Below, one piece after another: positions 35,973-63,139 of a DNA stretch of 64,000 nucleotides. Source of the DNA: Acidobacteriota bacterium (GTDB lineage: Bacteria; Acidobacteriota; Terriglobia; Bryobacterales; Bryobacteraceae); assembly GCA_017307505.1 (NCBI GenBank), contig JAFKEE010000042.1:1-64000 (forward strand), read 5' to 3'. The notes beneath the pieces were generated by a model. The model was not told the DNA's origin, did not search any database, and worked only from the letters and a program-made list of their open reading frames with translations. The position numbers were made by a program, and so were the translations under genes. Within the stretch, counting starts at the first letter, position 1, and the number at the start of each line of letters is the position of its first letter.

Positions 35973-37124
35973 ATGCTGCAATCCACGAAGATCATGTTGA
36001 CCGCGCTTGGCGCCGTCTCCCTGCTGAACTACCCCGCGGCCGCCCAACAGAAGCGAAATCCGGCGCCCGCCGTGGGATCTGAAATCCGTGTACTGGATGA
36101 GACCCAGCCCGCCGGCGGCACTGTCCAACTGAAGGTCAGCCTTACCGAGCCGAAGCCGATCTCCAGCGGCACGAAGCGCCTGGTGCTGGATCCCTTCGCG
36201 GTCGACGAGATCCTCGGCATTTCGCTCTGGAGCCCGCTTGGCGACGTCTTCGGTGTTGCCCGCGTCACGGACGGCAACCTCTCTGTGAACGCGATCTCCC
36301 CGCTGGGCTCGTTTGGGACGGTGGTGGATTATCCGATCCTTACCGTCGCGGCGCACATCCGCACCGATGCCATTGCGGGCATGACCTTCCCGCTGTCGCT
36401 GGATCCGTCCTCCTCGTTCGTCGACTCGCTGGGCCTGGTGGAGCCGTTCCTCCCGTCGAAACCCGGCATCCTGACGATTGGCGGCTCGGCCTCCATTCAC
36501 AATGTCATCCCAGGTGGCGGCATCTGGCCGGCCGGAACGCAGATTCGCATTGTGGGATCGGGCTTCGATCCCGCCGCAAGGATCCGCACAAAGTTCAAGA
36601 CTAAATCGGCCAAGGTTGTCAGCCCCAGCGAGATCCAACTGGTGCTGGGCGAGACCGTCGAGATGGACGCACAGAAGATCAGTGTCACCAACCCGAACAA
36701 GGATTCGGTCGACTACTACTCCTACCTGCGGGCCATCCCACAGGGCGCAAGCCTGCAGCCCGCCGTGGCCGCGGCCCATCCCATCTTCCCGCGCTCGTTC
36801 AAGGCCACTCAGGCGAGAACGGCTCAGCAGGCCCAAGGCGCAACTGGAACCGTGCTCACCGCCCTGGCTATCCAGAACTCGAACGCTGCGACGGCGGAGA
36901 TCCGGCTCGAAGCCTGGACACCTGCCTCCGGGGTGTTGGCGCAAGCCGCGCTTACGCTGGCCAGTGGCGAATCGATCACGCGCGAGTTGGGGGAATACTT
37001 CCAGACGAAGCTCAGCGCGGGTACGCAGGTGCGTGTGATCGCGACTGTTCCCGTGCAGGTGGTCAGCTTCACCGCGGATGCTGCGACGGGTGAGCTGCGC
37101 CCACTGATGCCGGTGCCTTTCTGA
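35973..37124 (+). CDS. secreted cohesin/IPT-like protein
   Basis: A protein of about 383 residues with a signal peptide (about 1-25, ending AAAQ). Residues about 35-170 look like a cohesin-type beta sandwich (GSEIRVLDETQPAGGTVQLKVSLTEPKPISSG; FGVARVTDGNLSVNAISP). Residues about 185-270 resemble an IPT/TIG fold (IHNVIPGGGIWPAGTQIRIVGSGF). A third beta domain ends the chain. These are extracellular adhesion or structural folds; no catalytic residues are seen. It lies 23 bp after the anti-sigma gene, so is likely part of that operon. Its last 56 bases overlap the convergent CHAT gene. Confidence 0.82.
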   Translation: MLQSTKIMLTALGAVSLLNYPAAAQQKRNPAPAVGSEIRVLDETQPAGGTVQLKVSLTEPKPISSGTKRLVLDPFAVDEILGISLWSPLGDVFGVARVTDGNLSVNAISPLGSFGTVVDYPILTVAAHIRTDAIAGMTFPLSLDPSSSFVDSLGLVEPFLPSKPGILTIGGSASIHNVIPGGGIWPAGTQIRIVGSGFDPAARIRTKFKTKSAKVVSPSEIQLVLGETVEMDAQKISVTNPNKDSVDYYSYLRAIPQGASLQPAVAAAHPIFPRSFKATQARTAQQAQGATGTVLTALAIQNSNAATAEIRLEAWTPASGVLAQAALTLASGESITRELGEYFQTKLSAGTQVRVIATVPVQVVSFTADAATGELRPLMPVPF

Positions 37125-39510
37125 TCTTCGCGGCCCACCACAACACCAGCAGCAACAGCAGCACTACGGCGCCGGCCAGTGCCGGGAACAACGTGGAGCG
37201 CGGAGCGCGTACGGTGGCGTCGCCGTTCAGCACGTAGCCGGCCCAGTAGCGGGGGTGCGCCAGCGCCTCGCCCGATCGCCGGAACTCCAGCTTCGCTGCC
37301 CGCAGTGCCTCCGATACGCTCTGGCCCTCGTTCAAGGCCGAATAGAAACTGCTCATGAATCCGGCGGAGGGCCTGTCCGAAATGCGCCACAGCGTGGATA
37401 CCGTCGCCCTGGCGCCCGCCCCCAGGAACGACCGGCTGATGCCCTGCATACCTTCGCCGGCCACCGGTTGCCCTAACTCCGTGTCGCACGCGGCCAGGGT
37501 CACCAGCGACGTGGTGGAAAGATCCAGTGCCGCCACTTCGCGGGCAAAGAGAAAGTCGTACTGCCGGGCCGGGTCCGACGAAGTGAATACCAGCCGCGAA
37601 CGATCCACATCGGCGCTATCGGCCACCGCGTGCGTCGCGAAATGCAGGAGGGGCACTCCGCGCAAATCCGCACTGCTCACATACCGTTTCAGATTGGACT
37701 CGCCGGCATGCACGAGCGCTCGTCCGGATATGGCCGAGGCCGCGGCTCGCGCCTCTTCCGTCGCGCCCGGCAGGTCCGCCAGTCCTTCCGTGAACAGCCT
37801 GGATCCCGACGAAGATGCCGGTTGATTCGGGCTGGCGAAGGCCACCAGGATCGTGCGCCACGGCGAAGCCCAGTCACGGCCGGCCTGCGCGCCAGCCAGC
37901 ATGGACGCAGAAGGCAGGTAGCTCACCGTGAAGCGGTCGATCAGTAGCTGATTGAAGCCTGGAGCTTGGAGCGATTCAAACGGCAGCGATTGGAGCCGGC
38001 CGTCGCCGACGATGATCAGTTGGTCGACTACCGGCAATTTCCCAAGCACGCCCAGCGTCGCTTTGCCCAGTTTCTCCGACGCCGCCCGCCAATCAGCCCG
38101 GCCTGATCGCAGCGACTCGAGATACGCTTCGATCGCCCCGGCCTCCGGTGCCTTGAATCTCACCAGGCCCGCGGCGGCGGAAGTGATCCATAGGACGGCC
38201 CCGTGCGGTTCCGCTACCCAGAATTCCAGTAAGGCCGTGTGCGGAGCCAGACGGCGCTGGATGTCTGCGATCGAAGCCGGGTTGGCTGTCTCGCGGATGC
38301 GGTCTTTCAACGCGCGGGCGCGGCCCTGCTCCATGTAGCGGAAGATCTCTTCCAGACCTGGCGATTCCTCCGCCGCCAGTAACGCGATGGCCGCATCGTA
38401 GACATCGCGCTTATCGCCCAGGAAGCCCGCCCTCAGGCCGACTGTGGAGATGCCGGTCCGCATGGCTTCAATCGCTGCAATGGCCTCCCGATAGAAGCCC
38501 AGCGCCTCGGCCCGTTGCCCGGCGTCTTCCGCCACGCGCCCCAGTTCGAAGCGCGCCTTCCAGGTCTCTTCCGTCGCGTGAATCTGTTCCGCCGACTGCA
38601 ACGCCCGCGACGCCATCCGCCGCGCCTGCGGCAGGAGCCGCCGCCGACGCGACGATTCGCTCAGATAGAGCAGGGCCTGCGTTGCCTCCCTGCGATTGCC
38701 CGACTGCTCCGCCAGGTGGAGCGCCCGTTCAAAGTTGGGTTGGGCGGCGGCCGGATCTTCCAGGTCCTGCCCCAGGGCGATGCCCATGTTCTTGATGACG
38801 CCGATTTCGCCGTCGCTGTCATGGTTGGCCGCGAACAGAGCCTGCGCCTCGCGGTAGCGGTCCAGTGCTTTGTAGGGATCCCCCAGCCGCCGGTACAGGA
38901 CGCCCATGTTTGCCAGCAGTTGAGCGCGCTCACCGGGAGCGAGCGCACTGCGCGTCGACGACAGCTCCTGATAGATCGCCAGCGCCCTCTGATACTGGCC
39001 CAGCTTCTGGTAGAGCACGGCGATATTGGCGCGTGTCATCTGCAGCCGGCGGGCATACCAATCGGCCTGATTGTTTCTCTTCAGAATCTCCAGCGCATCC
39101 TCATAACGGCCATGCGCCTCGCTGTAGCGGCCGAGGAAGTAGAAGACATTGCCTTCGTTGTTGAGGAGCGTCACTTCGGCGGAGATCAGGCCGGAACCGC
39201 GAGCTACCTGCCTGGCGGAGGCATAAGCGCCCAGCGCGCCCTCATACTCGCCCGAGTTCACCATGGCGCGGCCGACCGTGGTTCGGCAATCGACCTCTGC
39301 GGTCGCCAGGTGAATTGATCGGTTTAGATCGGCACACTCCGTGGCGTGGCGAATCGCATCTGGGTATTGCCCGCCGGCCAGCTCATTCTCCGCCCGGGTC
39401 GCGAGCAACTCAGCCTTTAGCCGTTGGTCTTCGGCCGCCGCGCCTTGCGCCGGAATCAGGGCGGCCAAGCTGCAACAGACGCTCCAGCAGAGAATGATAC
39501 GGCTTCTCAC
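37069..39510 (-). CDS. CHAT domain protein with TPR repeats
   Basis: An 813-residue protein. A signal sequence (about 1-24) leads into at least six tetratricopeptide repeats (about 35-330; for example GNVFYFLGRYSEAHGRYEDAL). The CHAT peptidase domain (about 480-760) has the caspase/separase-type dyad H627 (LHFATHAV) and C675 (TLAACDTELG), plus the following MQGISRSFLGAGARATVSTLW. A C-terminal helix (about 780-800) anchors it. CHAT proteases are activated by partner binding through TPRs, as in separase-like and Craspase-type systems. It is next to an ECF sigma/anti-sigma operon, a pairing common in Acidobacteriota; a regulated envelope protease is inferred. Confidence 0.9.
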   Translation of the reverse strand: MRSRIILCWSVCCSLAALIPAQGAAAEDQRLKAELLATRAENELAGGQYPDAIRHATECADLNRSIHLATAEVDCRTTVGRAMVNSGEYEGALGAYASARQVARGSGLISAEVTLLNNEGNVFYFLGRYSEAHGRYEDALEILKRNNQADWYARRLQMTRANIAVLYQKLGQYQRALAIYQELSSTRSALAPGERAQLLANMGVLYRRLGDPYKALDRYREAQALFAANHDSDGEIGVIKNMGIALGQDLEDPAAAQPNFERALHLAEQSGNRREATQALLYLSESSRRRRLLPQARRMASRALQSAEQIHATEETWKARFELGRVAEDAGQRAEALGFYREAIAAIEAMRTGISTVGLRAGFLGDKRDVYDAAIALLAAEESPGLEEIFRYMEQGRARALKDRIRETANPASIADIQRRLAPHTALLEFWVAEPHGAVLWITSAAAGLVRFKAPEAGAIEAYLESLRSGRADWRAASEKLGKATLGVLGKLPVVDQLIIVGDGRLQSLPFESLQAPGFNQLLIDRFTVSYLPSASMLAGAQAGRDWASPWRTILVAFASPNQPASSSGSRLFTEGLADLPGATEEARAAASAISGRALVHAGESNLKRYVSSADLRGVPLLHFATHAVADSADVDRSRLVFTSSDPARQYDFLFAREVAALDLSTTSLVTLAACDTELGQPVAGEGMQGISRSFLGAGARATVSTLWRISDRPSAGFMSSFYSALNEGQSVSEALRAAKLEFRRSGEALAHPRYWAGYVLNGDATVRAPRSTLFPALAGAVVLLLLLVLWWAAKIRKAPASVGAAHPSQHPR

Positions 39511-52131: not shown

Positions 52132-52860
52132 TTACTGGTCCGCTCTCCAGCCGGCATGCCAGCCGAAGGACTGGAAGGCTTTGTTGCAGTTAACGGCCCC
52201 GTCAGTTTCCGCGACGTTGTAGATGCCAGGCTCACCCCGCGTGACGGCGAGTTCGGCGGCTTTGGCCGCCGCATCGACGTGCACCGAACCGGAGGCGATC
52301 GGCCAGTCAAAGCCGGTCCCGGGACCGTAAAACAGCCCGTAGCGCAAGACAATCCCATCGAGCGGAGCTTCGATCACCTGGCGTTCCAAGCTCATCACGC
52401 CGGCGACCGTTCCGCCATAAACCGGATGAGTCAACGCAAGCAGCGGATCTGTTTCGCCGTGCGGCGTGGGACCTTCCGCGTAGATGAAAGCGATACTCTG
52501 GGCGATCAGGCGCTTGGCGCCTGCATGGACGGCCGCCGCGACTAGGTTTCTTGTTCCTTCGTCCCGGAGTCGCGCATTGCGCTCCAGCGCGTCGGCCATC
52601 TTGGAGGCCTCGAGGGCGTGGGGCAGGTCGGTGAGTTGATGGATCACGACCTCTGGCCGGATGGCGGCCAGGAGTTCTTTCAGCCCAGCGGAATCGAAGA
52701 CGTCAATTACGGCTGGTTCGACTCCCATCTCACGCAACATGGGCGCTTTCTGTGCAGACCGCGTCGAGCCAACTACCCGCCACCCACTACTCACCAGAAG
52801 CGGGCAAAGCCGCCGGCCAATTGCACCCGTCGCGCCCGCCAGGAAGATGCTCTTACTCAT
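52132..52860 (-). CDS. NAD-dependent epimerase/dehydratase relative
   Basis: A 242-residue protein with an extended-SDR Rossmann domain: the glycine motif is AGATGAIGRRL (about 8-18), then the acidic FD loop at about 53-56, VIHQLTDLPHALE, and QSIAFIYAEG where the active-site serine/tyrosine region lies. It is shorter than full epimerases (about 300) because the C-terminal substrate domain is brief. The usual YxxxK is not clear, so catalysis may be altered and NAD(P) binding alone is likely. Substrate is unknown. It is alone on the minus strand, just left of the putative island. Confidence 0.85.
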   Translation of the reverse strand: MSKSIFLAGATGAIGRRLCPLLVSSGWRVVGSTRSAQKAPMLREMGVEPAVIDVFDSAGLKELLAAIRPEVVIHQLTDLPHALEASKMADALERNARLRDEGTRNLVAAAVHAGAKRLIAQSIAFIYAEGPTPHGETDPLLALTHPVYGGTVAGVMSLERQVIEAPLDGIVLRYGLFYGPGTGFDWPIASGSVHVDAAAKAAELAVTRGEPGIYNVAETDGAVNCNKAFQSFGWHAGWRADQ

Positions 52861-53106
52861 GGAAACTCTCCAGGCGCGCCCCTCGGATCGCCGGTTTGCC
52901 GGCTAGGACTTCAGGGTCCACGACGATGCGCTCAGAAAGCAACATATCCAAAGCTTACCGTGTCACTAGGGGGGGCGGGAACCATTCGGTCAGCCATCCG
53001 CGAGTGGGTTGATTTGCTTCGCTGGGCAAGCGGAAAGACCGTTCTGGATTGGTGGTCTTTGGAAGGGGGTTGGTGCTGGATAGCGCCAGTTTGGTGTGCT
53101 TGGAAT

Positions 53107-53192
53107 TGGCTCCTCAGGTAGGACTTGAACCTACAACACTTCGGTTAGCAGCTCCCGCCCGCCCGATGGCGGCGATGCTACCGATTGAGATA
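53107..53192 (-). other. degenerate tRNA-like sequence, possible att site
   Basis: On the minus strand the sequence ends with a perfect tRNA 3' part: T stem GTAGG, loop TTCAAGT, CCTAC (53134-53118), then CTGAGGA, G and CCA (to 53107). Upstream it shows a D-arm-like TCTCAATCGGTAGCAT and a CTGCTAA anticodon-loop-like segment. The acceptor 5' strand (TCCTCAG) and the anticodon stem 5' side are missing, replaced by GC-rich sequence. This fits a tRNA remnant left at an integration boundary, not a working tRNA. Confidence 0.5.
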
Positions 53193-53239
53193 AGTTACTC
53201 GGGATCAAGCGGTTATGGCGGGCCTCTGAAATCCAATAA

Positions 53240-53302
53240 CTGTAGGGACTACCCACTTTTGGGCGCTATTCTGAAGGAGCATCCCTACAAAAGTCCCTAC
53301 AG
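53240..53302. repeat. 11-bp inverted repeat near island edge
   Basis: CTGTAGGGACT (53240-53250) and AGTCCCTACAG (53292-53302) are perfect reverse complements with a 41-base spacer; CCCTACA also recurs directly (53283, 53295). It lies 50 bases from the tRNA-like sequence. It may be an integrase arm site or a folded element. No gene is seen from 53193 to 53481. Confidence 0.5.
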
Positions 53303-53481
53303 GTTTTGGGCCCGTTTTTCTACAACCTTTCGGTTGATGACCGAAAAGTACCCACGCTGACGGTGCCGGTCCTCGTCCAGTCCAACGAGGTATTGAAATC
53401 GCCCGACTCCTCTTCGTCGTGGACAAGATTCCGAACAAGGCCGAGTCACGCGGGACCAAAACCCTAGCGGTCTACGTGGTG

Positions 53482-53961
53482 TCAGCGCCGGTCGGCAATG
53501 AGGAAGACAGCGCCCAGCAATTCGTCGGTGTTCAGGCTCGGAGTTGACGATTCGGTCAGAAGCTTGACCCCGAACGTGGCCTGAACCTCCTGCCCCGCAT
53601 CTTCGAGAACAACATCGTCTGGGAGTCCAAGTGCCCGTCGAGCGATAGCCTGCGCCTTCGACTGGGCACCCACTTTCGTATTGAAGGTGCTTCGATCATG
53701 CCGACTCGCGTCCGCATTCCAAGACGCCTGTTGATTCTTGCTGGACTGGTGCTTTTTGAGGCAAACCGCAACGTGCTGCTGCTGCCGGATCTCAGGCCTG
53801 GCGGAATCAATCCGATAGATCCAACCGGAAAATTCGGAGTCTCTCCAAATGCTCTCCTGAATCATGCCGGCCTGAACCGCTCGGGAGTCGCGCGGATCGA
53901 CCAGTACAACGATTGTCCCGGGTTCTTGTTCTTCGAGCATGGTCACCACGATACCAGGCAT
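53482..53961 (-). CDS. hypothetical protein
   Basis: A 159-residue soluble protein with a plausible composition. The N-terminal half alternates strands and short helices (GTIVVLVDPRDSRAVQAGM, FSGWIYRIDS). A polar middle has several K/Q/N residues, and a C-terminal section reads AQAIARRALGLPDDVVLEDA. I do not recognise the family with confidence. It is the first possible gene after the tRNA-like sequence and is divergent from the cassette at 54079. Its frame has no competing long frame on the plus strand with better features. Confidence 0.55.
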   Translation of the reverse strand: MPGIVVTMLEEQEPGTIVVLVDPRDSRAVQAGMIQESIWRDSEFSGWIYRIDSARPEIRQQQHVAVCLKKHQSSKNQQASWNADASRHDRSTFNTKVGAQSKAQAIARRALGLPDDVVLEDAGQEVQATFGVKLLTESSTPSLNTDELLGAVFLIADRR

Positions 53962-54078
53962 GCTCAGAAATTACAGCTTCGGATCCTACGGACGATCGAC
54001 CGGGTTTTCGGTTGACGACTGAACAGCACCTCTCCTGGAGACTTCGAGGCGACCAAGTCGAGCCAGATTTGTTGGACA

Positions 54079-54483
54079 ATGGCGACTATGCTCGCGCAGC
54101 TTCTTTTCTTTCTCGCGTCGGCTCAGGACGCCTCAAACCGGTTAACAGGCGGGGGCTGGCGGGAATGGACGTTGCACCGCTTCGAGATGACAATGGGCGC
54201 GTCGGGTGCCTGCAAAGCCGGGTCGGTGTACCGGTTTTCCGCCGATCACAAGGTTGCGATCCGGGAGTGCAGAGACGGGCACATCGTCACGACCGATGCC
54301 GACTGGAACGTATCCACCGAGGGGAATGCCGATACCTTCCTCACAATTGGCGGAAGGCGGTATCACCTGTTCTTCAAGAGCGAGAACGGAGTCGAATCCA
54401 TGCGGCTTGAAATCCGGCCTGAGACCAAAGAGCCGATTCAGGATTACGACTTCCGATTGACCAAAAACGGGACGGGCAAATGA
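54079..54483 (+). CDS. small secreted beta-rich protein
   Basis: A 134-residue protein with a short signal peptide (MATMLAQLLFFLASAQ). The mature part is a series of strands (EWTLHRFEMTMGASGACKAG, SVYRFSADHKVAIRECRDGHIV, YHLFFKSENGVESMRLEI) of the lipocalin-like or META-like kind, with two cysteines. I do not know the family. Its stop overlaps the start of the next gene by 4 bases, and it leads a five-gene cassette that includes a caspase-like protease and a metalloprotease. A role as secreted sensor or inhibitor is conjecture. Confidence 0.7.
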   Translation: MATMLAQLLFFLASAQDASNRLTGGGWREWTLHRFEMTMGASGACKAGSVYRFSADHKVAIRECRDGHIVTTDADWNVSTEGNADTFLTIGGRRYHLFFKSENGVESMRLEIRPETKEPIQDYDFRLTKNGTGK

Positions 54484-54947
54484 CCGAGGAGCGCAAGCGC
54501 GTTTGGGACGTCTGGTTCGGGGTGCTCGGACCGATCATTACTGTTGCGGGCATCCTCGTGGGCGTCTGGCAGTTCAATACCGGCGAACGCAACCGTGTTG
54601 AGCTCGCAAACCGATTGCTTCGCGAGAAGGATACGATCGAGTTCAAGCGCAAGCTTTGGCTGGATCGAGTCACCACTTATCGCTCCATTGCGGAATTGGC
54701 CGGAGGCATCGCAGCCAGCGAGAAGAAGGACAAGGATTTCCTCGCGTTGGTACAGAAGTTCCGCGCCTCGTACTGGGGTCTGATGATTCTGGTTGAGGAC
54801 CTCGAGGTGCGCAAGCAGATGGTCAACTTCTGGGCCGATATCCACAATTTCGAAGAGGGGTGGACGGATGCAAACACACTCAAGGTTCGCGCGCAGCAGT
54901 TGGGGGAGGCTTGCCGCGCCTCGATTGAGCGCGGGAGCGTTCTCTAG
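54480..54947 (+). CDS. single-helix membrane protein
   Basis: A 155-residue protein. A short N terminus (MTEERKRVWDVW) is followed by one membrane helix (about 12-32: FGVLGPIITVAGILVGVWQF) and a cytosolic helical domain (FKRKLWLDRVTTYRSIAELAGGIAA, LALVQKFRASYWGLMILVEDLEVRKQMVNFW). The pattern WQFNTGERNR after the helix is common in small membrane proteins of accessory regions. Its start overlaps the upstream stop (ATGA), and the caspase-like gene begins inside its 3' end. It may be a membrane adaptor for the proteases; that is inference. Confidence 0.75.
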   Translation: MTEERKRVWDVWFGVLGPIITVAGILVGVWQFNTGERNRVELANRLLREKDTIEFKRKLWLDRVTTYRSIAELAGGIAASEKKDKDFLALVQKFRASYWGLMILVEDLEVRKQMVNFWADIHNFEEGWTDANTLKVRAQQLGEACRASIERGSVL

Positions 54948-56382
54948 ATCACTCCGAGTCGGACGGTTCTTCGCAATCCTCTTGGGCCTCGTCTTTGCCG
55001 GCGTGCTGATGGCTGCGCCAGACCGTTTCGACGTATTCTTCGTTGCGATCGGGTCCGACAACTATGCGCAGCCCGCGGGCGCGAGCCATTTCTCTCCGCT
55101 CCAGAACGCCGCCGACCGCAGCGGAGAGCGCGTGGCCGACTTGTTGCATCGGGCGGGGGCACGGTTTGGCGTCAGTCTGGTTTCTGACGACACACACTAT
55201 GTGAGCCGCACTGATGTGATGCGTGCTCTGAACCAGGTTCATACACAATTCGTGCAATCGCGTGCCACCCATCCGTTGCTCGTGTTTTACTTTGCAGGGC
55301 ACGGAATATCTGAGGGCATCGGCTGGAATCACTTTTCAGTTCCGGGCGACTTCGCAAGTTCCAGGGACATTGCCACGCTCGGAATTGAAGAATTGACAGC
55401 GGCCACACTGCACGCGGCGGATCTGGTCGGCACCCTGGAGTCGTATAAGATTCCCTTTCTCCTGTTGCTCGATACCTGCTCTGAAGGCAAGCGCGAGGAT
55501 TTCCGACATTCGGTCCTGTCGGGTATGGCTCAACAGAACCTGCGCGACACCGCCGCCATTTTACGTGTGCTGAACGAGTTCCGTGACACCTATCCCGTGC
55601 TCTTCTCAGCCGAGCCGGGTACCGTAGCATCCACGGTAGCGGACCCGCGCGATCCGAACTTTTACTCTCTTGGTCCCTTGGCGCGCCGATTGACGATTAT
55701 CTTCGATCGCGCTAATCAGTCGCATGCGCCGTTTAGCCTGAGCCAACTACTTGCCGACCTGAGCTCGACGACGCTCGACGCGACAACCAAAGCAGCCGTG
55801 TGCCACACTGAAAACCGCGCCTTTCCTCAACTCGTGGGTGACCCGGATAATCCGATTGTTGGTCGCCTCGAACGTCTGAGTGCAACTGCCACTAAAGCTG
55901 CTCTTTGCTGTGCTGCGAAGTCAGTTGCTCAGTCCCCTCCGTCTCCGCAACATGCTGCGGGTGCGCTCGCGATCGACGGTAAGTCGGGCGAATACGTCAC
56001 TGGCGGGCGACCGTTTAGGTTCGTCTCACCTCCCTCGGTATTCCTCATTAACGAGCTGTCGCCACGCAGGATTGCGCTTGAAATCGATGACGGTCCCGGC
56101 GCCCCTTGGCTCGTGAGTTTCGATGCCGGCGACGGCGGCCGGTTCTCAGTCCGCGACTACCCGAATGCACAACGCTTTGATATGGGTGATAGTGCACATC
56201 CGGGAATCGAGATCTCCGGCAACGGTCATGGCTGCAACAGCGTGGCGGGAAGCTTCACCGTTACCGGCGCGGAGTATGCGGCAAGCGGCGCATTGAGCCG
56301 AGTGAAGATGAATTTCACGCAGCTTTGTGACGACGTAAGGATTCCACTCACTGGCTCGCTCGACTTAACCATCCACAAGTGA
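54868..56382 (+). CDS. caspase-like protease (peptidase C14)
   Basis: A protein of about 504 residues. A hydrophobic segment (RFFAILLGLVFAGVLMAAP) lies at about 32-50 and acts as signal or anchor. The caspase-fold domain (about 55-270) has the dyad H145 (LVFYFAGHG) and C204 (FLLLLDTCSEG). The C-terminal 200 residues are beta-rich and end in a possible lipid- or ligand-binding sandwich. The ATG at 54868 has GAGGGG seven bases upstream but lies within the preceding gene; TTG at 54925 or ATG at 55009 are alternatives. Bacterial caspase-like proteases often execute regulated death or cleave partner proteins. It is exported or membrane-bound here, unlike the usual cytosolic defence caspases. Confidence 0.85.
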   Translation: MQTHSRFARSSWGRLAAPRLSAGAFSRSLRVGRFFAILLGLVFAGVLMAAPDRFDVFFVAIGSDNYAQPAGASHFSPLQNAADRSGERVADLLHRAGARFGVSLVSDDTHYVSRTDVMRALNQVHTQFVQSRATHPLLVFYFAGHGISEGIGWNHFSVPGDFASSRDIATLGIEELTAATLHAADLVGTLESYKIPFLLLLDTCSEGKREDFRHSVLSGMAQQNLRDTAAILRVLNEFRDTYPVLFSAEPGTVASTVADPRDPNFYSLGPLARRLTIIFDRANQSHAPFSLSQLLADLSSTTLDATTKAAVCHTENRAFPQLVGDPDNPIVGRLERLSATATKAALCCAAKSVAQSPPSPQHAAGALAIDGKSGEYVTGGRPFRFVSPPSVFLINELSPRRIALEIDDGPGAPWLVSFDAGDGGRFSVRDYPNAQRFDMGDSAHPGIEISGNGHGCNSVAGSFTVTGAEYAASGALSRVKMNFTQLCDDVRIPLTGSLDLTIHK

Positions 56383-56462
56383 AGAGCAGCGATTCGGCCG
56401 TTGCCTGTCCGCGCCGACTGCTGACTGAACTACAATAGCGACTCAGGTGTCGGACGCAATCT

Positions 56463-57053
56463 ATGCAAAATCGGCTCGCGTTCCTGAGGCTAATCGGATT
56501 CGCCCTGCTCGCGGGTCTCGCGATCTGGATCGGCGCATCCGTAATGCATGGTGTCGGCCGCGAGGCTCCGAGGCTGCTCGATGACAGCCATGCTTTTGAA
56601 GGCAACGCGCAATTGCCAGCAGCGGAAATTCAGAAACAGCTCACGGAGGCCCGTGAGCGCATGGACGCCCGCTACCAGTACAGCCAATGGACGCGGTACG
56701 CCGGTATGGCTGGTGACTGGCTGGCTTTCTTGTTAACCGCCGTGATAACGCTGATTGCGGGCTATCATGGCCGTGTGCTCGCTGTCGGAGCACCCGATCC
56801 CGCAAAGATAGCCGACTTGGTGAAGGACCAATCCGCTCGATTCACACGTACAGTTGGGCTAGTCGCTGCTGCCGCCGCCATATGCACCGCCCTTTCTGCC
56901 AAGGCGAAAGATGTCTCCGACGGCTTTTACAACGATGCGTCGGCGATCCAGGCAGCTGCTATGAACGCGCGCAGGGACCTTGTCAAAGCATCGGACGCAT
57001 CGTCAGCGCAGGACATATTGGACCAGCTCAAGCAGAACCTCGCAAAGCATTGA
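56463..57053 (+). CDS. three-helix membrane protein
   Basis: A 196-residue protein. The first helix is at about 9-28 (LRLIGFALLAGLAIWIGASV), then an extracytoplasmic helical section (PAAEIQKQLTEARERMDARYQYSQWTRYAG), a second helix (about 82-100: DWLAFLLTAVITLIAGYHG), and a third (about 128-144: TVGLVAAAAAICTALSA). A C-terminal helical tail follows. No family is recognised. It lies 80 bp after the caspase-like gene and 11 bp before the metalloprotease gene, so it likely shares their transcript. Confidence 0.75.
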   Translation: MQNRLAFLRLIGFALLAGLAIWIGASVMHGVGREAPRLLDDSHAFEGNAQLPAAEIQKQLTEARERMDARYQYSQWTRYAGMAGDWLAFLLTAVITLIAGYHGRVLAVGAPDPAKIADLVKDQSARFTRTVGLVAAAAAICTALSAKAKDVSDGFYNDASAIQAAAMNARRDLVKASDASSAQDILDQLKQNLAKH

Positions 57054-57064
57054 CTTTTGGCTTT

Positions 57065-57931
57065 ATGATTCGTCCGGGTCTTGCCTTCCTGACTGCCGTG
57101 CTCGTTGCACTCGGGGCCTGTCAGACGGCGCCCCGGGCCGCAGCTTGCCGACCCGAAGAGTACGGACTTGAGGAATGGACTGTGCATCCCGAAGCTCTGG
57201 ACAAGGCGGTCACACTTGTCAATGGCATCCTCAGTGGCGATGGCAAATTCCACCTGATAACGCCCCGCGTCTCTGCAGGAGCAGGTCAACCTATCTCCGT
57301 GTTTGAGGTTCATGGGTCATTTGTCGCGGACGCTGATGTGGCGATGGTGGCTGAAGGCCGCTGCGTCTTCGTGAGCCGCAATTGGAGACAGCAACTTGCA
57401 CCGTTTTTCGGTGGGGGCACGCAGGCTGCAATGGATCTTGAACCGCCGGACGCCCTTGCGATCATCCTCCTGCATGAGGTAGGACATATCCAGAAGGAGA
57501 GTCTTCCCCAGGACGCCGCCATCGCGACTCTGCTAGCGAGCTTGGGGGACACCAAACGCGAAGAGATGCGCGCCGATGCGTTCGCCGCACGTCAGCTCGC
57601 GAAAGCGTTCAATCACAACTGGGATTCAGGGGTGGCCCCTTTTTCGTTGAGTATGGCCTTAACGCATATCACCTGGAACCTTCAGGCCAATCGCGAGCTC
57701 AATCATTTCGGTGCGACGATTATGCATTCGTCAGACGTCTTTAACGAGACCGGCGATTCTCACCCCAATCTCGAATTGCGATTCCTGGTGATCAACTATC
57801 TCGTGCGTCCTGCGCCGGACGCCCTCGCTCTGCTCAATGAATTTCTCGATGCGCGAGCCCATCCGGCAGGAGTCCTCTACCAGAGCAGTCCGCGCTCACC
57901 GTACTCCCTGTTTCCGAATAACCGCCCTTGA
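57065..57931 (+). CDS. zinc metalloprotease lipoprotein
   Basis: A protein of about 288 residues. The signal peptide carries a lipobox (VALGAC) with the acylated cysteine near residue 18. The zinc site HEVGH (H137, E138, H141) lies in IILLHEVGHIQKE. A later EEMRADAFAARQ helix offers the third ligand, as in M48-like gluzincins. The C-terminal 110 residues are helical. It should act as a membrane-tethered protease in the periplasm. It is last in the five-gene cassette with the caspase-like protease, giving two unrelated proteases in one unit. The family is not one I can name beyond the motif. Confidence 0.8.
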   Translation: MIRPGLAFLTAVLVALGACQTAPRAAACRPEEYGLEEWTVHPEALDKAVTLVNGILSGDGKFHLITPRVSAGAGQPISVFEVHGSFVADADVAMVAEGRCVFVSRNWRQQLAPFFGGGTQAAMDLEPPDALAIILLHEVGHIQKESLPQDAAIATLLASLGDTKREEMRADAFAARQLAKAFNHNWDSGVAPFSLSMALTHITWNLQANRELNHFGATIMHSSDVFNETGDSHPNLELRFLVINYLVRPAPDALALLNEFLDARAHPAGVLYQSSPRSPYSLFPNNRP

Positions 57932-58236
57932 CTGCCCCGCAGCATGCGTGCCTTCGCAAGTTTGTCGACAGGAAACCAAGAGTGACGGCCAATGAATAAA
58001 TCGATCGTAGATTGCAAATAAAGAATTTAGCGTCTACGGCGCCGATGCTGACGATCCCAAGCTACTGATTCTACAGGGGCGGATTTTCCGCGTCCGTTAA
58101 TGGACTCTTATTGGACTCTGGATTTCCAAGCCGAGTCCAATAAACTCCGAAGTCGGAGCGCGGGATACAGGCATGCCACCCTTACTCAATGTGTCGGGGC
58201 TTGTCAAGAACTCCCGACGTTTCGTAAAATCGAGAT
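57932..58236. promoter_or_regulatory. intergenic with inverted repeat and promoter
   Basis: No gene is seen. TTATTGGACTC (58108-58118) and GAGTCCAATAA (58133-58143) form a perfect 11-bp inverted repeat with a 14-base spacer; TGGACTCT also occurs at 58101. Further on, TTGTCA (58201-58206) and TAAAAT (58225-58230) form a good promoter with an 18-base spacer, which would start transcription at or next to the AbiEi start codon (58237). Confidence 0.55.
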
Positions 58237-58842
58237 ATGCCGCCTGCCGAGCCGATTGCCAGGGTCGCTGCACTCGCGAAAGCCGCCGGCGTTCTGCGTC
58301 CCCGCGATCTGGATGCACATGGCATCGCTCGCCAGTATCTACGGCTGGCTGAACAACAAGGCCTCGTTGTGAAGTCCGGCCGTGGACTCTACACGTCCAC
58401 CGACGCACCCATCACTGAACTCCATACGATCGCTGAAGCGTCGAAGAGAGTACCCCGCGGCGTCGTCTGCCTGCTTTCCGCTCTGCGGTTTCATGACATC
58501 GGAACGCAGAACCCGTTCGAAGTATGGATCGCGATTGGCGAGAAAGACCGCCGTCCCGTGGCTGAGCTCCCTCGCCTCCGCGTGGTTCGCTTCTCCAAGC
58601 ACACGCTTAGCTTCGGCCAGGAGACTCACGACATGGAAGGAGTACCGACCCGGATCTTCTCTGTCGCGAAGACCGTGGCCGATTGCTTCAAGTACCGAAA
58701 CAAGATTAGTCTCGATGTCGCGCTGGAAGCTCTGCGTGAATGCCTCAAGCAGCGTAAGGCAACCACCGCGGAACTGTGGGAAGCCGCCAAGGTATGCCGG
58801 GTGGCGAACGTCATGAAGCCGTACCTGGAGGCGCTTGCGTGA
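58237..58842 (+). CDS. AbiEi-type antitoxin
   Basis: A 201-residue protein of the AbiEi type IV antitoxin/regulator family. The N-terminal winged-helix part (about 5-55: RVAALAKAAGVLRPRDLDAHGIARQYLRLAEQQGLVVKSGRGLY) is followed by the C-terminal domain with VPRGVVCLLSALRFHDIG, VWIAIGEKDRRP and the SVAKTVADCFKYRNKISLDVALEALRE core. AbiEi normally neutralises the nucleotidyltransferase toxin AbiEii encoded next to it and represses the operon. No AbiEii is visible here, only a 40-codon frame starting at GTGA. Transcription may be leaderless. Confidence 0.88.
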   Translation: MPPAEPIARVAALAKAAGVLRPRDLDAHGIARQYLRLAEQQGLVVKSGRGLYTSTDAPITELHTIAEASKRVPRGVVCLLSALRFHDIGTQNPFEVWIAIGEKDRRPVAELPRLRVVRFSKHTLSFGQETHDMEGVPTRIFSVAKTVADCFKYRNKISLDVALEALRECLKQRKATTAELWEAAKVCRVANVMKPYLEALA

Positions 58843-58961
58843 TACACGATCGCACATGGACGTCGCTTGGCGACGCAGACTTCCAGAGGAGTTTGCTCAA
58901 ACGACTTGCCAAGCGATTTCCCACCGTCAACGGGCCACTCAAGATCTCGGAGCTTGCCTAG
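58839..58961 (+). CDS. possible 40-residue ORF after abiEi
   Basis: GTG at 58839 overlaps the AbiEi stop, the usual arrangement for a coupled toxin gene. The frame ends after 40 codons (IHDRTWTSLGDADFQRSLLKRLAKRF, then PTVNGPLKISELA). It shows no AbiEii motif. It could be a real tiny protein, the stub of a replaced toxin, or chance. The stretch 58962-59052 holds nothing else I can support. Confidence 0.25.
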   Translation: MIHDRTWTSLGDADFQRSLLKRLAKRFPTVNGPLKISELA

Positions 58962-59052
58962 CCGAATCGCCGGGATTCCCGTGTCGGCCAGCAAGTCCCA
59001 CGTCGGCGAGACCGAACCTTTGGGCAGCAGGCCCTGGCAATGAAGCGCAACC

Positions 59053-59086
59053 TAGTCTATCATCCCTTGATAGACTACTTGATAGG
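59053..59086. promoter_or_regulatory. palindromic operator before HTH-ietAS
   Basis: TAGTCTATCA (59053-59062) and TGATAGACTA (59068-59077) are perfect complements with a 5-base spacer, followed by a third half-site TTGATAG (59080-59086). It ends 27 bases before the HTH gene start, so binding by that protein and autoregulation of the operon are likely. Confidence 0.65.
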
Positions 59087-59113
59087 AGAGGCCGTCGACG
59101 CCGTCTCGCAAAC

Positions 59114-59383
59114 ATGCTTTATCAACGTTCACTAGACATAGAGACCAGGTTGGATTCGGTGCTCCAGCTGATTCGCATTGGCGGATACTCGACCCCGAAG
59201 CTCGCAGAGAAGCTGCGCGTATCGATACCGACGGTCTCGCGCGATGTAACGGCTTTGAGGCAACGCGGACATGCCATCCGTTCGATGCGGACGGATGAGG
59301 GCTGGAGTTTCGTACTGGACCAGAAAAAGCCGCCGAATGTCATCCGAATGACGAATCCGCAATTGAAAGTAGCCCAGGGGTGA
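59114..59383 (+). CDS. small HTH DNA-binding protein
   Basis: An 89-residue protein: LDIETRLDSVLQLIRIGGYSTPKLAEKLRVSIPTVSRDVTALRQRGHAI is a complete winged helix-turn-helix of the HTH_11/DeoR-like kind, followed by a short wing (SMRTDEGWSFVL). No effector domain is present. It lies 46 bp upstream of ietA and just after a palindrome, and probably represses its own operon. The ATG at 59114 is the first in-frame start that fits the fold; no strong ribosome-binding site precedes it. Confidence 0.75.
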   Translation: MLYQRSLDIETRLDSVLQLIRIGGYSTPKLAEKLRVSIPTVSRDVTALRQRGHAIRSMRTDEGWSFVLDQKKPPNVIRMTNPQLKVAQG

Positions 59384-59429: not shown

Positions 59430-60455
59430 ATGGACGCCGACATTATAAAACGTGTAGTCCGGGCCATTGCCGAACGCTCTCAAGGTGATCTCGACCGTCT
59501 CGCTCCCAAAATAGTGGACAGCGAGAGGCGTGTGGGTCATAACAAGCTGGCAGATCAACTGGACGCAATCCTAAGGCAACCGCGACCACGCACCAACGGA
59601 GGCAATGCTCTCGCGACGATGCCGGAACGGGCAAGTGCACCCGAGCGGAACCTCTTTGAATTGCCGCTGAGCCGGCGGCACGGCGATTCCCTCGCAACAC
59701 TGATTCCGTCTGAGAAGCTCGAACATCACATGGTGCTTCCCAGAGAGACCGAAGAGCGCTTCGCTAGAATCGAGAGCGAATTTGCTGCCAGGGATCGGCT
59801 GAGCACGTTTGGTCTCAAGCCGCGCAAAACCGTGCTTCTCTACGGCCCTCCGGGCTGCGGGAAGTCGTTGGGTGCCAAGCGCATCGCATGGAATGTCGGA
59901 TTGCCTCTTCTGAAGGTCCGTTTCGACGCGCTGATTTCCTCCTATTTCGGAGAGTCCGCTACCAATCTCCGTTCGCTTTTCGCAGCCGCAAAAGAGAGCC
60001 CATGCGTGCTGCTGTTGGATGAGTGCGATTTTATAGCGCGCTCCCGAGTGACGAACAAGGATATCGGCGAGGCTTCGCGTATCGTCAACACGCTGCTTCA
60101 ATTGATGGAGGAATACGACGCACCTGGCCTGCTCGTCGCGACTACCAACATCGAGGCGTCTCTTGATTCGGCGCTATTCAGGCGGTTCGATGACGTTTTC
60201 ATGGTGCCGCCACCCGGTCACGCGCAGATTGAGGAACTTCTCCGAATGACGCTTTCCGCCGTGAAGGTGTCCGAGCCGTTTAACTGGAGCGACCTGGCGG
60301 ACCAGCTAAGCGGTGCACCCGCTGCGATGGTGGTCAAGGCCGCTCGTGACGCGGCGAAAGCGGCCGTACTGCAGAACCGCCGAATCGTCACTGAGGCGAA
60401 TGTCCGTGAGGCCGCTGCGGAGTTGCACATCAACGAGACACTGCGCAAAGAATAA
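59430..60455 (+). CDS. ietA: IetA-like AAA+ ATPase
   Basis: A 341-residue AAA+ ATPase. A helical N-terminal domain (about 1-95) is followed by the ATPase core with Walker A GPPGCGKSLGAKRIAW (about 138-155), Walker B VLLLDECDF (about 190-198), sensor 1 ATTNIEASLD and arginine finger in FRRFD. The lid ends in VREAAAELHINETL. A strong GGAGG lies seven bases before the ATG. It ends 2 bp before the subtilase gene, a pairing that matches IetAS, described as a plasmid incompatibility factor in Agrobacterium and later as an anti-phage system. The ATPase presumably loads or unfolds targets for the protease. Confidence 0.8.
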   Translation: MDADIIKRVVRAIAERSQGDLDRLAPKIVDSERRVGHNKLADQLDAILRQPRPRTNGGNALATMPERASAPERNLFELPLSRRHGDSLATLIPSEKLEHHMVLPRETEERFARIESEFAARDRLSTFGLKPRKTVLLYGPPGCGKSLGAKRIAWNVGLPLLKVRFDALISSYFGESATNLRSLFAAAKESPCVLLLDECDFIARSRVTNKDIGEASRIVNTLLQLMEEYDAPGLLVATTNIEASLDSALFRRFDDVFMVPPPGHAQIEELLRMTLSAVKVSEPFNWSDLADQLSGAPAAMVVKAARDAAKAAVLQNRRIVTEANVREAAAELHINETLRKE

Positions 60456-60457
60456 CT

Positions 60458-63139
60458 ATGCCTGGACAGCATCACTTCGAGCATCTCCCGCTGATCTTGC
60501 GCGAGCAGGGCCGTGCAAAGCTCAAAGGGGGCGGCAAGGCATCGCCCCAGACGATCGCCAACAGGAATGCTCGCCAGGCGCACAGCACAGCGCTCTCCAC
60601 CGCCGCACAATCTCTGAAAACCAACTGGGGGATTATCAAGGCTCAGAGCGCCGCGCAGGGCGTCCCAATCATCCCTCAGGGCATTCCCATCCTGCTGAAG
60701 ATAGATCCCCAGCTTGATCTGGATGTCTTGCGCGAGAAGTTCGAGTTTGAAATCGTCGCGGAACAGGAAGAGGGCTATGTCATCGTCGCAGCTGAAGACA
60801 TCGAATTGACGCCCTTCGTCCAGATGGTGAACGAGTTTGCTGTCGAAATACATGGTTCGGCCAGAATTGCGGAAGTCCACCGGCTTTTCGACGATCCTGC
60901 CGACCGGCTTCGCCGCATCCTCTCCGATCGGCTGCTGGAGATCTGGCCCACTATCACGGATGCGCAGATCTTCATTGTCGATGTCGGCATCGCTTGTTCC
61001 GGCACCAAGGAGATACCGAAACGTCCCGCCAAAGGAAAACGCATGACGGATGCGGATTGGGCGAAGCGGGAAGCGGAATGGTCGCAGGCGCGCGCCGACG
61101 CGTACAGCTCATGGGACTCGATCAAGCAAGAGCGCGAAACCGAGATCGAGGGATTCGCAACGCACTACGGAGCGGAGATCATCCACCTTGTGGACGGTGC
61201 GCCGTTCGATGCGGCCGTGCTCCCGGACAGTTTCACGGTCCGTGTCAGGATCACGGGCAAGGGTCTCCGCGATTTCGTATTGAACTACCCATACATCTTT
61301 GAAGTCGTCGAGCCCGAAGACATCGCCCTGCCACAAAATCCCGCCGTCCCGGCACCCGCAGCGGCTCGTCAGATCGCTCCGGTGGCACCCGAGGCCGATG
61401 CACCCACTGTCTGCGTTATCGACAGCGGCATCCAAGAAGCCCACATCTTCATTCAGCCTGCCATTGATCAACCAACGTCATTTTGTTTCCTGCCCGGCAG
61501 ACCAGCGACGGACGTCGGCGATTTTGTGGGGCCGGGCGGGCACGGCACGCGCGTCAGCGGCGCCGTCCTATACGGCGAGACGGTGCCCCCGAACGGGACG
61601 CCGAAGCTTCCTTGCTGGGTTCAGAACGCACGCGTCCTCGACGAACAGAACAAAATGCCCGAGGATCTCTTCCCGCCGGAGGTATTGCGGGCCGCAGTCA
61701 CCCGATTTCATGGCAGTCCCCGGCAAACCAGGATCTTCAATCACTCCATCAATGCAAACGGATATTGCCGTACCCGGTATATGTCGGCTTGGGCCGCCGA
61801 GATCGACCTTCTGAGCGCCACGTATGACATCCTGATCGTGCAGAGCGCCGGCAACCTCCCGACGAAGGGTCCGGTACCCTACATCGGCGTCAAGGATCAT
61901 CTTGATGCCGGGAGGCCCTATCCGAGATACCTCGATGAGGATTCAGCTCGCGTCGCAAATCCGGCGCAGAGTCTCCAGGCCCTCACCGTCGGCTCGATCA
62001 CCTATGGTGCCTTCGACGAGAACGGCTGGCGAAGTTTCGGACGCGAGGATGGCCACCCGTCCGCCTTTTCCCGTTCGGGGCCCGGTATTTGGAGCGTCAT
62101 AAAACCGGAAGTCGTCGAGTATGGGGGCGACGACAGCCGAACTTCCAACGATCCTGTGGACGTCCGAAACGGCGGAATTGCTGGGGCCTGTCCCGAGCTG
62201 ATCCGGTCCACGATGTTCCCTCCTGGGCCCGCGTACGACCGCGATGCCGTCGGCACGTCGTTCGCGGCGCCGAAGGTGACGCGGATTGCCGCCAGGCTGC
62301 AAGCCGTCCTCCCCGACGAACCAGCTCTTCTATATCGTGCCCTCATCGTCCAATCCGCACGTTGGCCCGACTGGGCTGAGGGCTTGATGACGCAACTTCG
62401 CCTGACCGCCGACCTGCAGGAGCGCCAGGCCTTGATCGATAAGGTTTCGCGTGTCATCCGCTGTCTCGGTTACGGATTGCCCGATGTGGTGCGCGCCACA
62501 ACGAATACCGACCACCGCACAACGTTCATCACGAGCGGTTCGGTGTCTATCAAGCCTCTTGAAGCTCATATCTACCAGGTGCCGATCCCAGAGGAACTTC
62601 GCGGCGCCGGCGACGAGTACGACATTCGTATCGAAGTGACGTTGTCTTACGTGGCGCAACCGCGCCGTACCCGCCGACACTTGCGAAGGTACCTTTCGAC
62701 GTGGGTGGACTGGATAAGTAGCAGCCTTGGCGAAAGTATCGCATCCTTTCGTGTTCGCGCCATCAAGGAAACACCGGCGGACGACAGTCCGCAGCCGGGC
62801 GAGACACTTCCTTGGGTGCTGCAGGACCAGCCCCACCACGGTCTCATACGCGGCACTAAACGAAATAACGGCACCGTACAGAAAGACTGGGCCGTGGTGA
62901 AGTCCAATGCTCTGCCCAGGGACTTTTGCATCGCCGTGCGCGGTCACGAGGGCTGGAGCCGCGATCCCGATTCTACGGCGAGCTACAGCCTAGCCGTTAC
63001 CTTCGAGATTATGGGTCAGGAAATTCCGATCTACGACGCGCTGCGAACGGCCGTCATCGAGTTGCAGGAACTTCAGGCGGAAGCGGAGATCGAGGAAATC
63101 GAGACGGAGGAAGAGGTGGAAATCGAGGTCGATGAGTAA
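60458..63139 (+). CDS. ietS: IetS-like subtilisin-family protease
   Basis: An 893-residue S8 peptidase without signal peptide. A large N-terminal region (about 1-300) precedes the subtilase domain with the triad D322 (VCVIDSGIQ), H362 (GGHGTRVSG) and S601 (GTSFAAPKV). A C-terminal beta-rich section and an acidic tail (EIEEIETEEEVEIEVDE) follow. It is coupled to the AAA+ ATPase gene (2 bp gap), which fits the two-gene IetAS module. Cytosolic location plus ATPase coupling implies selective cleavage of phage or host proteins. The preceding HTH gene and AbiEi suggest a defence island. Confidence 0.85.
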   Translation: MPGQHHFEHLPLILREQGRAKLKGGGKASPQTIANRNARQAHSTALSTAAQSLKTNWGIIKAQSAAQGVPIIPQGIPILLKIDPQLDLDVLREKFEFEIVAEQEEGYVIVAAEDIELTPFVQMVNEFAVEIHGSARIAEVHRLFDDPADRLRRILSDRLLEIWPTITDAQIFIVDVGIACSGTKEIPKRPAKGKRMTDADWAKREAEWSQARADAYSSWDSIKQERETEIEGFATHYGAEIIHLVDGAPFDAAVLPDSFTVRVRITGKGLRDFVLNYPYIFEVVEPEDIALPQNPAVPAPAAARQIAPVAPEADAPTVCVIDSGIQEAHIFIQPAIDQPTSFCFLPGRPATDVGDFVGPGGHGTRVSGAVLYGETVPPNGTPKLPCWVQNARVLDEQNKMPEDLFPPEVLRAAVTRFHGSPRQTRIFNHSINANGYCRTRYMSAWAAEIDLLSATYDILIVQSAGNLPTKGPVPYIGVKDHLDAGRPYPRYLDEDSARVANPAQSLQALTVGSITYGAFDENGWRSFGREDGHPSAFSRSGPGIWSVIKPEVVEYGGDDSRTSNDPVDVRNGGIAGACPELIRSTMFPPGPAYDRDAVGTSFAAPKVTRIAARLQAVLPDEPALLYRALIVQSARWPDWAEGLMTQLRLTADLQERQALIDKVSRVIRCLGYGLPDVVRATTNTDHRTTFITSGSVSIKPLEAHIYQVPIPEELRGAGDEYDIRIEVTLSYVAQPRRTRRHLRRYLSTWVDWISSSLGESIASFRVRAIKETPADDSPQPGETLPWVLQDQPHHGLIRGTKRNNGTVQKDWAVVKSNALPRDFCIAVRGHEGWSRDPDSTASYSLAVTFEIMGQEIPIYDALRTAVIELQELQAEAEIEEIETEEEVEIEVDE

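Follow-up and report, generated by a model that had tools for sequence, protein, structure and literature searches.

A total of five genes, here called g1 to g5, are packed on the forward strand within a 64,000-nucleotide stretch (the window) of contig JAFKEE010000042.1 from an Acidobacteriota bacterium of the family Bryobacteraceae. We found that the recurring unit at this locus is not the five-gene set. It is the pair formed by g4, a three-helix membrane protein (3TM), and g5, a zinc-protease-like lipoprotein, together with some caspase-fold protease, whose place is taken here by g3. Tentatively, we read the locus as a conflict module at the membrane that was acquired laterally and in which a constant 3TM-metalloprotease pair would be controlled by a swappable caspase-fold protease. 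The module itself is moderately supported, and its mechanism and direction of signalling are what we infer from the genes. Caspase-fold proteases occur widely among bacteria, and to our knowledge most of them have no known substrate. If the reading is true, the recurring pair names a candidate substrate or partner for three caspase-fold families, opens signalling from caspase to metalloprotease in the bacterial envelope to tests that need only two small genes, and adds an exported protease to the repertoire of defence modules, which mostly target nucleic acids or NAD or act in the cytosol. A literature search, in which subscription journals and bioRxiv were thinly covered, found no published account of this gene set.

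The recurring pair and its caspase-fold neighbours

Relatives of g5 were found on Bradyrhizobium and Rhizobium plasmids by a plasmid search, and a scan of about 85,000 genomes by sequence pattern, an approach that can miss distant members, gave 380 pattern matches that led to five g5-family loci. Sampled genome searches contributed one extra locus (L032). Ten distinct loci were counted, the window included (the others being L002, L003, L004, L010-L014 and L032), where the near-identical plasmid records H4-H6 and H8 were merged into L002 and L003 and three weak matches (G1039, G1552 and G1487, E 9e-4 to 9e-6) were left out. Two further candidates, L008 and L009, were rejected as they resemble other zinc-protease families, with L009 being LoiP/BepA-like. 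One true match to the g5 profile was found among 399 genomes of the class, two other matches being judged different families. Further tallies gave 1 of 291, one true and one weak match among 347, 1 of 296, and two true and two weak matches among 299; in every tally the first true match is the window's own genome or the one on which that search was centred.

A homologue of g4 was observed directly 5' of the g5 homologue in four of the ten loci, namely the window, L010 (Bryobacterales, Acidobacteriota), L004 (Rhizobium plasmid, Pseudomonadota) and L014 (Chryseolinea, Bacteroidota). In L010 the 3TM is 68% identical to g4 and the protease 58% identical to g5, with a gap of 20 nucleotides between the genes, and with such adjacent homologues in another genome the cassette is more than a chance arrangement. 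The 3TM and protease genes overlap by 4 nucleotides in L004 as well as in L014, where they lie behind a tyrosine integrase. A hidden Markov model (HMM) of the window and L010 3TM proteins finds the L014 3TM (3.9e-10), an HMM of these three finds the L004 3TM (1.6e-8), and a profile-profile comparison of the two 3TM halves gives an E-value of 1.1e-9. These HMMs were built without their target, but the sub-alignments were cut from one four-way alignment, which leaves a slight bias. The 3TM models found nothing in L002, L003, L011, L012, L013 and L032 at E below 0.3. In a rough protease tree with long branches, the deepest split has 3TM-linked members on either side and at least two changes are needed, a pattern that fits either an ancient pair with losses in some lineages or two separate pairings.

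A caspase-fold gene was found upstream on the same strand in three of the four 3TM-protease loci, and three different kinds were observed: C14-like in the window, TPR-CHAT in L010 and SGNH-C14 in L004 (C14 1.3e-20). The gene lies directly before the 3TM gene in the window and in L010, where it encodes 963 amino acids (CHAT 3.6e-48) and ends 113 nucleotides upstream. In L004 it lies one small gene further away, the order being the SGNH-C14 gene, a gene for a 121-amino-acid two-helix protein, the 3TM homologue and the protease. The small protein encoded before the CHAT gene in L010 matches the phage-defence candidate PDC-M35B (2.6e-5). As base rates, a single C14 gene (the neighbour of the pair) and no CHAT gene were found on the 2.5-Mb L004 plasmid, the L010 genome holds 1 C14 and 13 CHAT genes in 7.8 Mb, the window genome gave no C14 match and 9 CHAT matches in 9.4 Mb, and the L014 genome holds 4 C14 and 5 CHAT genes. 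From these rates the chance that three of four pairs lie within 2 kb of a caspase-fold gene was estimated by hand as a few in 10 million, a figure weakened by being post hoc and by ignoring the clustering of defence genes. Chance adjacency in three of the four pairs is unlikely. The earlier note on this DNA had proposed that the co-occurrence of at least three of the five genes in unrelated genomes would support a system. This was found in L010 and L004 only if differing caspase-fold families are allowed to share one slot, and it was not found for g2 or for the particular g3; no second occurrence of the complete set was found in the data reached.

The setting of the cassette is a defence island. 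The AbiEi and IetAS genes named in the earlier note were recovered downstream of g5 (Table 1), and the island extends beyond the window, where a PDC-S28 helicase (6.2e-106) adjoins a SIR2-fused pAgo. The guanine-cytosine (GC) fraction is 0.63-0.67 at 46-53 kb and 0.54-0.61 at 53-64 kb, with a drop from roughly 0.65 to 0.57 at about 53 kb. Within the kin and class samples g3, g2, the 3TM and the g5 profile were each found only in the window genome (1/61, 1/61, 1/181 and 1 true/399 respectively), as in accessory genes. Other g5-family members were observed beside type I restriction genes (L012), HNH and UvrD-type genes (L002) and ThiF/E1-like genes (L003); the company of the family is mostly accessory conflict genes, with the exopolysaccharide locus L032 as the exception.

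Table 1. Coordinates of the cassette, of neighbouring genes and of a second pairing within the g5 family
Feature	Position	Strand	Description
g1	54079-54483	+	134 aa, short hydrophobic N-terminus, no family match
g2	54480-54947	+	155 aa, single predicted N-terminal transmembrane helix, rest charged
g3	54868-56382	+	Caspase-like (C14) putative protease, N-terminal hydrophobic segment, separate C-terminal domain; start uncertain
g4	56463-57053	+	196-aa three-helix membrane protein (3TM), recurring partner of g5
g5	57065-57931	+	288-aa HEVGH zinc-protease-like lipoprotein
AbiEi-type antitoxin (neighbour)	58237-58842	+	PADLOC AbiEi 5e-81
IetA (neighbour)	59430-60455	+	PADLOC 1e-66
IetS (neighbour)	60458-63139	+	PADLOC 1.6e-56
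SIR2-fused pAgo with adjacent PDC-S28 helicase (past the window)	L023:3535-9314, contig about 67535-73314	-	PADLOC pAgo E=0, PDC-S28 6.2e-106
Second pairing	L002:9224-9994, L003:9124-9960, L012:9233-10069, L013:8981-9871		By reading

Proteins of the cassette

The cassette spans 54079-57931, and the same-strand packing described in the earlier note was confirmed: the five open reading frames (ORFs) overlap or lie at most 80 nucleotides apart, g1 and g2 overlapping by 4 nucleotides (ATGA), with gaps of 80 nucleotides between g3 and g4 and 11 nucleotides between g4 and g5. A small codon model, with four other window genes as its training set, gives positive in-frame log-odds for all five (0.04 to 0.24), in each case higher than for any of the five alternative frames. 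An internal promoter was rejected, as the only promoter-like site within 53400-58400 falls at 58201, 3' of g5. Terminator-like sites were more numerous than in shuffles (10 against 4.6) and are located within genes or at 58092, after g5. An RNA gene or a tRNA-bound insertion was also rejected since the window has no tRNA and 52500-58500 has no Rfam match. None of the five proteins matches a PADLOC model at E<=1, which agrees with the statement in the earlier note that no named system has this set.

The HEVGH lipoprotein of the earlier note was borne out for g5, where the N-terminal hydrophobic segment ends in a lipobox-like LGAC with Cys19 (by reading). Its motif residues are H137, E138, H141 and E167 together with P234-N235 and R239, and ten positions were invariant in all nine aligned family members (H137, E138, G140, H141, E167, A170, D171, P234, N235 and R239). 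By motif (HEVGH, a downstream E..AD and PN...R) g5 is a gluzincin, yet it falls below every curated cut-off: it scores 11.1 bits on Pfam M48 against a cut-off of 20.3, and 4/9 family members match M48 at E<=1 (best 0.0052). Against solved structures the g5 profile matched peptide deformylases alone, at E about 1. Lit is a phage exclusion protease, and 8/9 family members match its model at E<=1 (best 1.8e-6, 27.4 of 274 bits; second 1.6e-5). The same model matched 2/4 other HExxH proteins (E 0.0026 and 0.0042), and no kinship with Lit is claimed, as g5 of the window (0.015) does no better than these two unrelated zinc proteases. A phage or prophage origin was rejected, no relative being found in viral-contig scans or, with the L014 protease as the query, in phage records, g5 itself not having been run against the phage records.

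Hydrophobic helices were called by a Kyte-Doolittle scan with a threshold. Three were found in g4 (residues 5-23, 80-98 and 127-145, the third marginal), as the earlier note had it, and three in the L010 homologue. No Pfam or PADLOC family matched g4 at E<=1, the 3TM was detected in one of 181 genomes, which is the window genome itself, and the 3TM profile matched only SMC coiled coils among solved structures (E 0.21). Judged by eye from the positive-inside rule, the N-terminus of g4 and the short loop past helix 2 would be inside. The stretch past helix 1 and the C-terminal tail would then be outside and could provide a docking face for an exported g5.

The caspase-fold protease that the earlier note saw in g3 was recovered in part. 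Both motifs, YFAGHG and LDTCSEG, which we take to be the catalytic His-Gly and Asp-x-Cys motifs of a p20-like caspase domain, lie within the Pfam C14 alignment (49-174 in a 467-amino-acid reading), but the C14 score of 15.8-16 bits is below the gathering cut-off of 21.4 (E=0.0098-0.012). The similarity to caspases is thus weak but motif-complete. The numbering H145/C204 given for the catalytic pair holds only for a start at ATG 54868 (504 amino acids); most searches were carried out with the 467-amino-acid stretch from 54979, where the pair becomes H108/C167. Other candidate starts are TTG 54982, which is 34 nucleotides past g2, and ATG 55009. The true start may be TTG 54982 because the coding signal in the g3 frame, by the codon model, begins only at about 54925-54980. 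Read from ATG 54868, g3 has a hydrophobic segment after a basic stretch (residues 31-49), most of which is kept with TTG 54982 and lost with ATG 55009. An AlphaFold2 model built without an alignment has a mean predicted local distance difference test (pLDDT) score of 34, too low for fold assessment, and no match to solved structures was found. Full-length relatives of g3 were absent from the 61 kin genomes other than the window's own, viral contigs, plasmids and the fetched loci. Its C-terminal part (about residues 325-466 of 467) matches a protein from Streptomyces and two closely spaced sites in a Photobacterium locus, the loci concerned being L005 and L006, and no Pfam family above chance covers this domain. 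Because the Streptomyces relative has a signal-peptide-like N-terminus (by reading), the C-terminal domain gives a hint that g3 may act outside the cytosol.

A single helix (residues 11-29) was found in g2, in line with the one-helix membrane protein of the earlier note. This protein has no Pfam match at E<=10, no PADLOC match at E<=1 and only weak NCBIfam matches that were taken as chance, and no full-length relative was found among the 61 kin genomes besides the window's own, plasmids or fetched loci. Secretion of g1 is plausible as its N-terminus is hydrophobic, though no segment of it passes the threshold. No match to g1 was found in Pfam, PADLOC, NCBIfam and PHROGs, and no significant relative in the fetched loci, the only comparison set, no collection having been searched. 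A weak tblastn match to g1 was seen on the minus strand of L002 (30% identity over 56 amino acids, with an E-value of 0.002 for the L002 locus alone).

Proposed mechanism and alternative explanations

The constant core of the module would be the inner-membrane g4 and the exported g5, probably held as one unit through the two outward-facing stretches of g4. The swappable slot would be filled by a caspase-fold protease whose gene is the first or second upstream, in some loci accompanied by a small protein with a membrane helix (here g2). This protease, or its attached domains and g2, would detect infection or envelope disturbance and become active, and would then cut or release the 3TM-metalloprotease pair. 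The pair would next attack envelope proteins such that the cell is killed or arrested, possibly in response to phage. The caspase-fold protease looks like the sensor or trigger and the pair like the effector because the former is swappable with differing extra domains and the latter is constant. This assignment is made plausible by the canu caspase-nuclease systems (Tuck et al. 2025, PMC12799240), where, according to the available part of that paper, an effector-protease pair was recruited by different immune systems. A more specific version, which we consider unlikely, is an envelope death switch of a kind not previously described, in which an exported zinc protease locked by its 3TM partner would be wired per lineage to C14, SGNH-C14 or TPR-CHAT to give a caspase-to-metalloprotease cascade across the inner membrane.

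Several observations weigh against such a module. Only four 3TM-protease loci were found, of which the window and L010 are close (68/58% identity), and the L004 3TM is missed by g4 alone (E 0.26) or by the window and L010 together (0.48). The L004 and L014 homologues have only two helices above threshold, and no clear lipobox was seen in the L004 protease. The scattering of homologues that the earlier note would have counted against a system was partly observed, as the pair is kept in 4/10 g5-family loci and 6/10 have no 3TM. Four of these six have a gene for a lipoprotein-like protein of about 280 amino acids downstream, L032 is in an exopolysaccharide locus, and in L011 the protease gene and an unrelated gene are arranged head to head. 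No caspase-fold gene was found in the six 3TM-less loci among the neighbours scanned (one or two each) or read from annotation or ORF lists. The L014 pair also has no nearby caspase-fold gene; its genome has nine, each on a different contig from the pair or more than 200 kb from it. The 3TM linkage is not significantly clustered in the protease tree, where 67/500 shuffles were as low. Fifty plasmid records match the L004 SGNH-caspase in whole or in part (11 over more than 80% of its length), whereas the L004 protease matches its own record only, and three plasmid SGNH-caspase neighbourhoods that were read have no 3TM-protease pair. Neither the L010 TPR-CHAT nor the L004 SGNH-caspase has an N-terminal hydrophobic segment, while g5 should be outside; with these two apparently cytosolic partners, only the 3TM could bridge to an exported g5. 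In addition, GC values of 0.59-0.61 also occur at 44-46 kb and the drop is not unique.

The same genes can be read with the flow reversed, where the 3TM and g5 would form an envelope sensor and g5 would cut and activate a caspase-fold executioner. An envelope location is expected for the pair and would expose it to adsorption or DNA entry, g3 carries its own hydrophobic N-terminal segment, and in the available text of Kaur 2020 (PMC7159879) it is commonly the effectors of conflict systems that vary. We find this direction rather doubtful, as the L014 pair and the 3TM-less g5 homologues have no caspase-fold neighbour that was found for them to activate and the apparently cytosolic TPR-CHAT and SGNH-caspase would be beyond the reach of an exported g5. 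It is also conceivable, and distinctly unlikely in our judgement, that two or three unrelated accessory units were packed into one island, with g1-g2-g3 (an EACC1-like membrane caspase pair) separate from g4-g5. Defence genes cluster anyway, the largest gap of the cassette separates g3 from g4, and phmmer found no significant g1-g3 relative beside the g4-g5 homologues (best 0.02). Furthermore, the upstream caspase-fold genes are unlike each other: g3 has no significant BLASTP match to the L004 caspase (E 0.18) and that of L010 is a CHAT protein. Against such packing, three kinds of same-strand upstream caspase-fold genes are hard to get given the base rates. In a role in envelope maintenance, g4-g5 would be an M48-like pair for quality control in the manner of LoiP/BepA, and the caspase-like protein would be a processing enzyme that is secreted, with no part in conflict. 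The M48-like gluzincin motif and the one homologue among exopolysaccharide genes agree with this; the absence from sampled relatives and the mobile-element and defence-island settings do not, and we regard it as very improbable.

Comparison with known systems

The closest published idea is the EACC1-caspase system (Kaur 2020), where, in the part of the paper available, a caspase-family gene comes after a 5' gene for a one-helix membrane protein, transmembrane helices are present in at least a third of the caspases, the attached domains are variable and proteolytic activation at the membrane is proposed. The same layout is seen here with g2 directly 5' of g3. Pfam, which presumably includes an EACC1 model, gave no match to g2, and on NF047832 (EACC1-associated caspase) g3 scores 16.1 bits and the L004 caspase 18.8 bits against a cut-off of 140. 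The g2-g3 genes may work by analogy with that system, whose family models they do not match, and the available part of PMC7159879 does not mention a 3TM-metalloprotease pair. The canu systems were tested against phage and, in the accessible text, their effector-protease pair was repeatedly acquired by different systems. They are similar to the present locus in having an island-borne caspase-family protease with a C-terminal domain, small partner genes and proteolytic activation, which for g3 would be by analogy. They differ in their linked, gated MBL-type nuclease, no nuclease family being found in g1-g5, while the partner that recurs here combines a membrane protein with an exported zinc-protease-like protein.

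The TPR-CHAT protein of L010 weakly matches Csx29 of Craspase (6.2e-6), which is also a TPR-CHAT protein. Its score is 25.3 of 300 bits, the part of L010 that was read has no CRISPR gene, and g3 of the window is C14-like rather than CHAT. The M48 gluzincins LoiP, BepA and HtpX share HExxH, the downstream E..AD and PN...R with g5, and the model for LoiP names it a lipoprotein; they differ from g5 in the M48 scores given above. A survey of prokaryotic metacaspases (Asplund-Samuelsson 2012, PMC3501461) describes, in its available part, caspase domains preceded by an N-terminal helix or signal, a fusion of GDSL with caspase and 23 operons that contain proteolysis genes, and the same part does not mention a 3TM-metalloprotease pair.

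Other observations

Within the window, an ORF at 58835-59383 follows AbiEi, and no AbiEii toxin was recognised there, this ORF not having been compared with any family library. A CHAT-domain gene is also present on the minus strand (37219-38079, within ORF 37069-39510) and is one of the nine CHAT matches of the genome.

Among the matches listed (30 of 50; H12-H41), the SGNH part of the L004 caspase (L004:4336-6291) also resembles plasmid genes that carry an amidase, S8 peptidase or trypsin-like peptidase annotation, as if it were an adaptor swapping enzymes. On Rhizobium and Sinorhizobium plasmids (L035, L036 and L037), SGNH-caspase genes were noticed near C1, C25 or trypsin-like peptidases, a YEATS-associated helix protein, an L,D-transpeptidase and a chitosanase, with a set of neighbours that differs from plasmid to plasmid.

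In four alphaproteobacterial loci the g5-like protease gene is followed by the similar gene for the lipoprotein-like protein of about 280 amino acids (by reading), which forms a second pairing of the family (Table 1); three of the four loci have restriction, HNH or ubiquitin-like genes nearby. In the Burkholderiales locus (L011:4263-7293), the gene head to head with the g5 homologue matches VWA7-N/Het-C and is followed by another zinc-protease-like gene.

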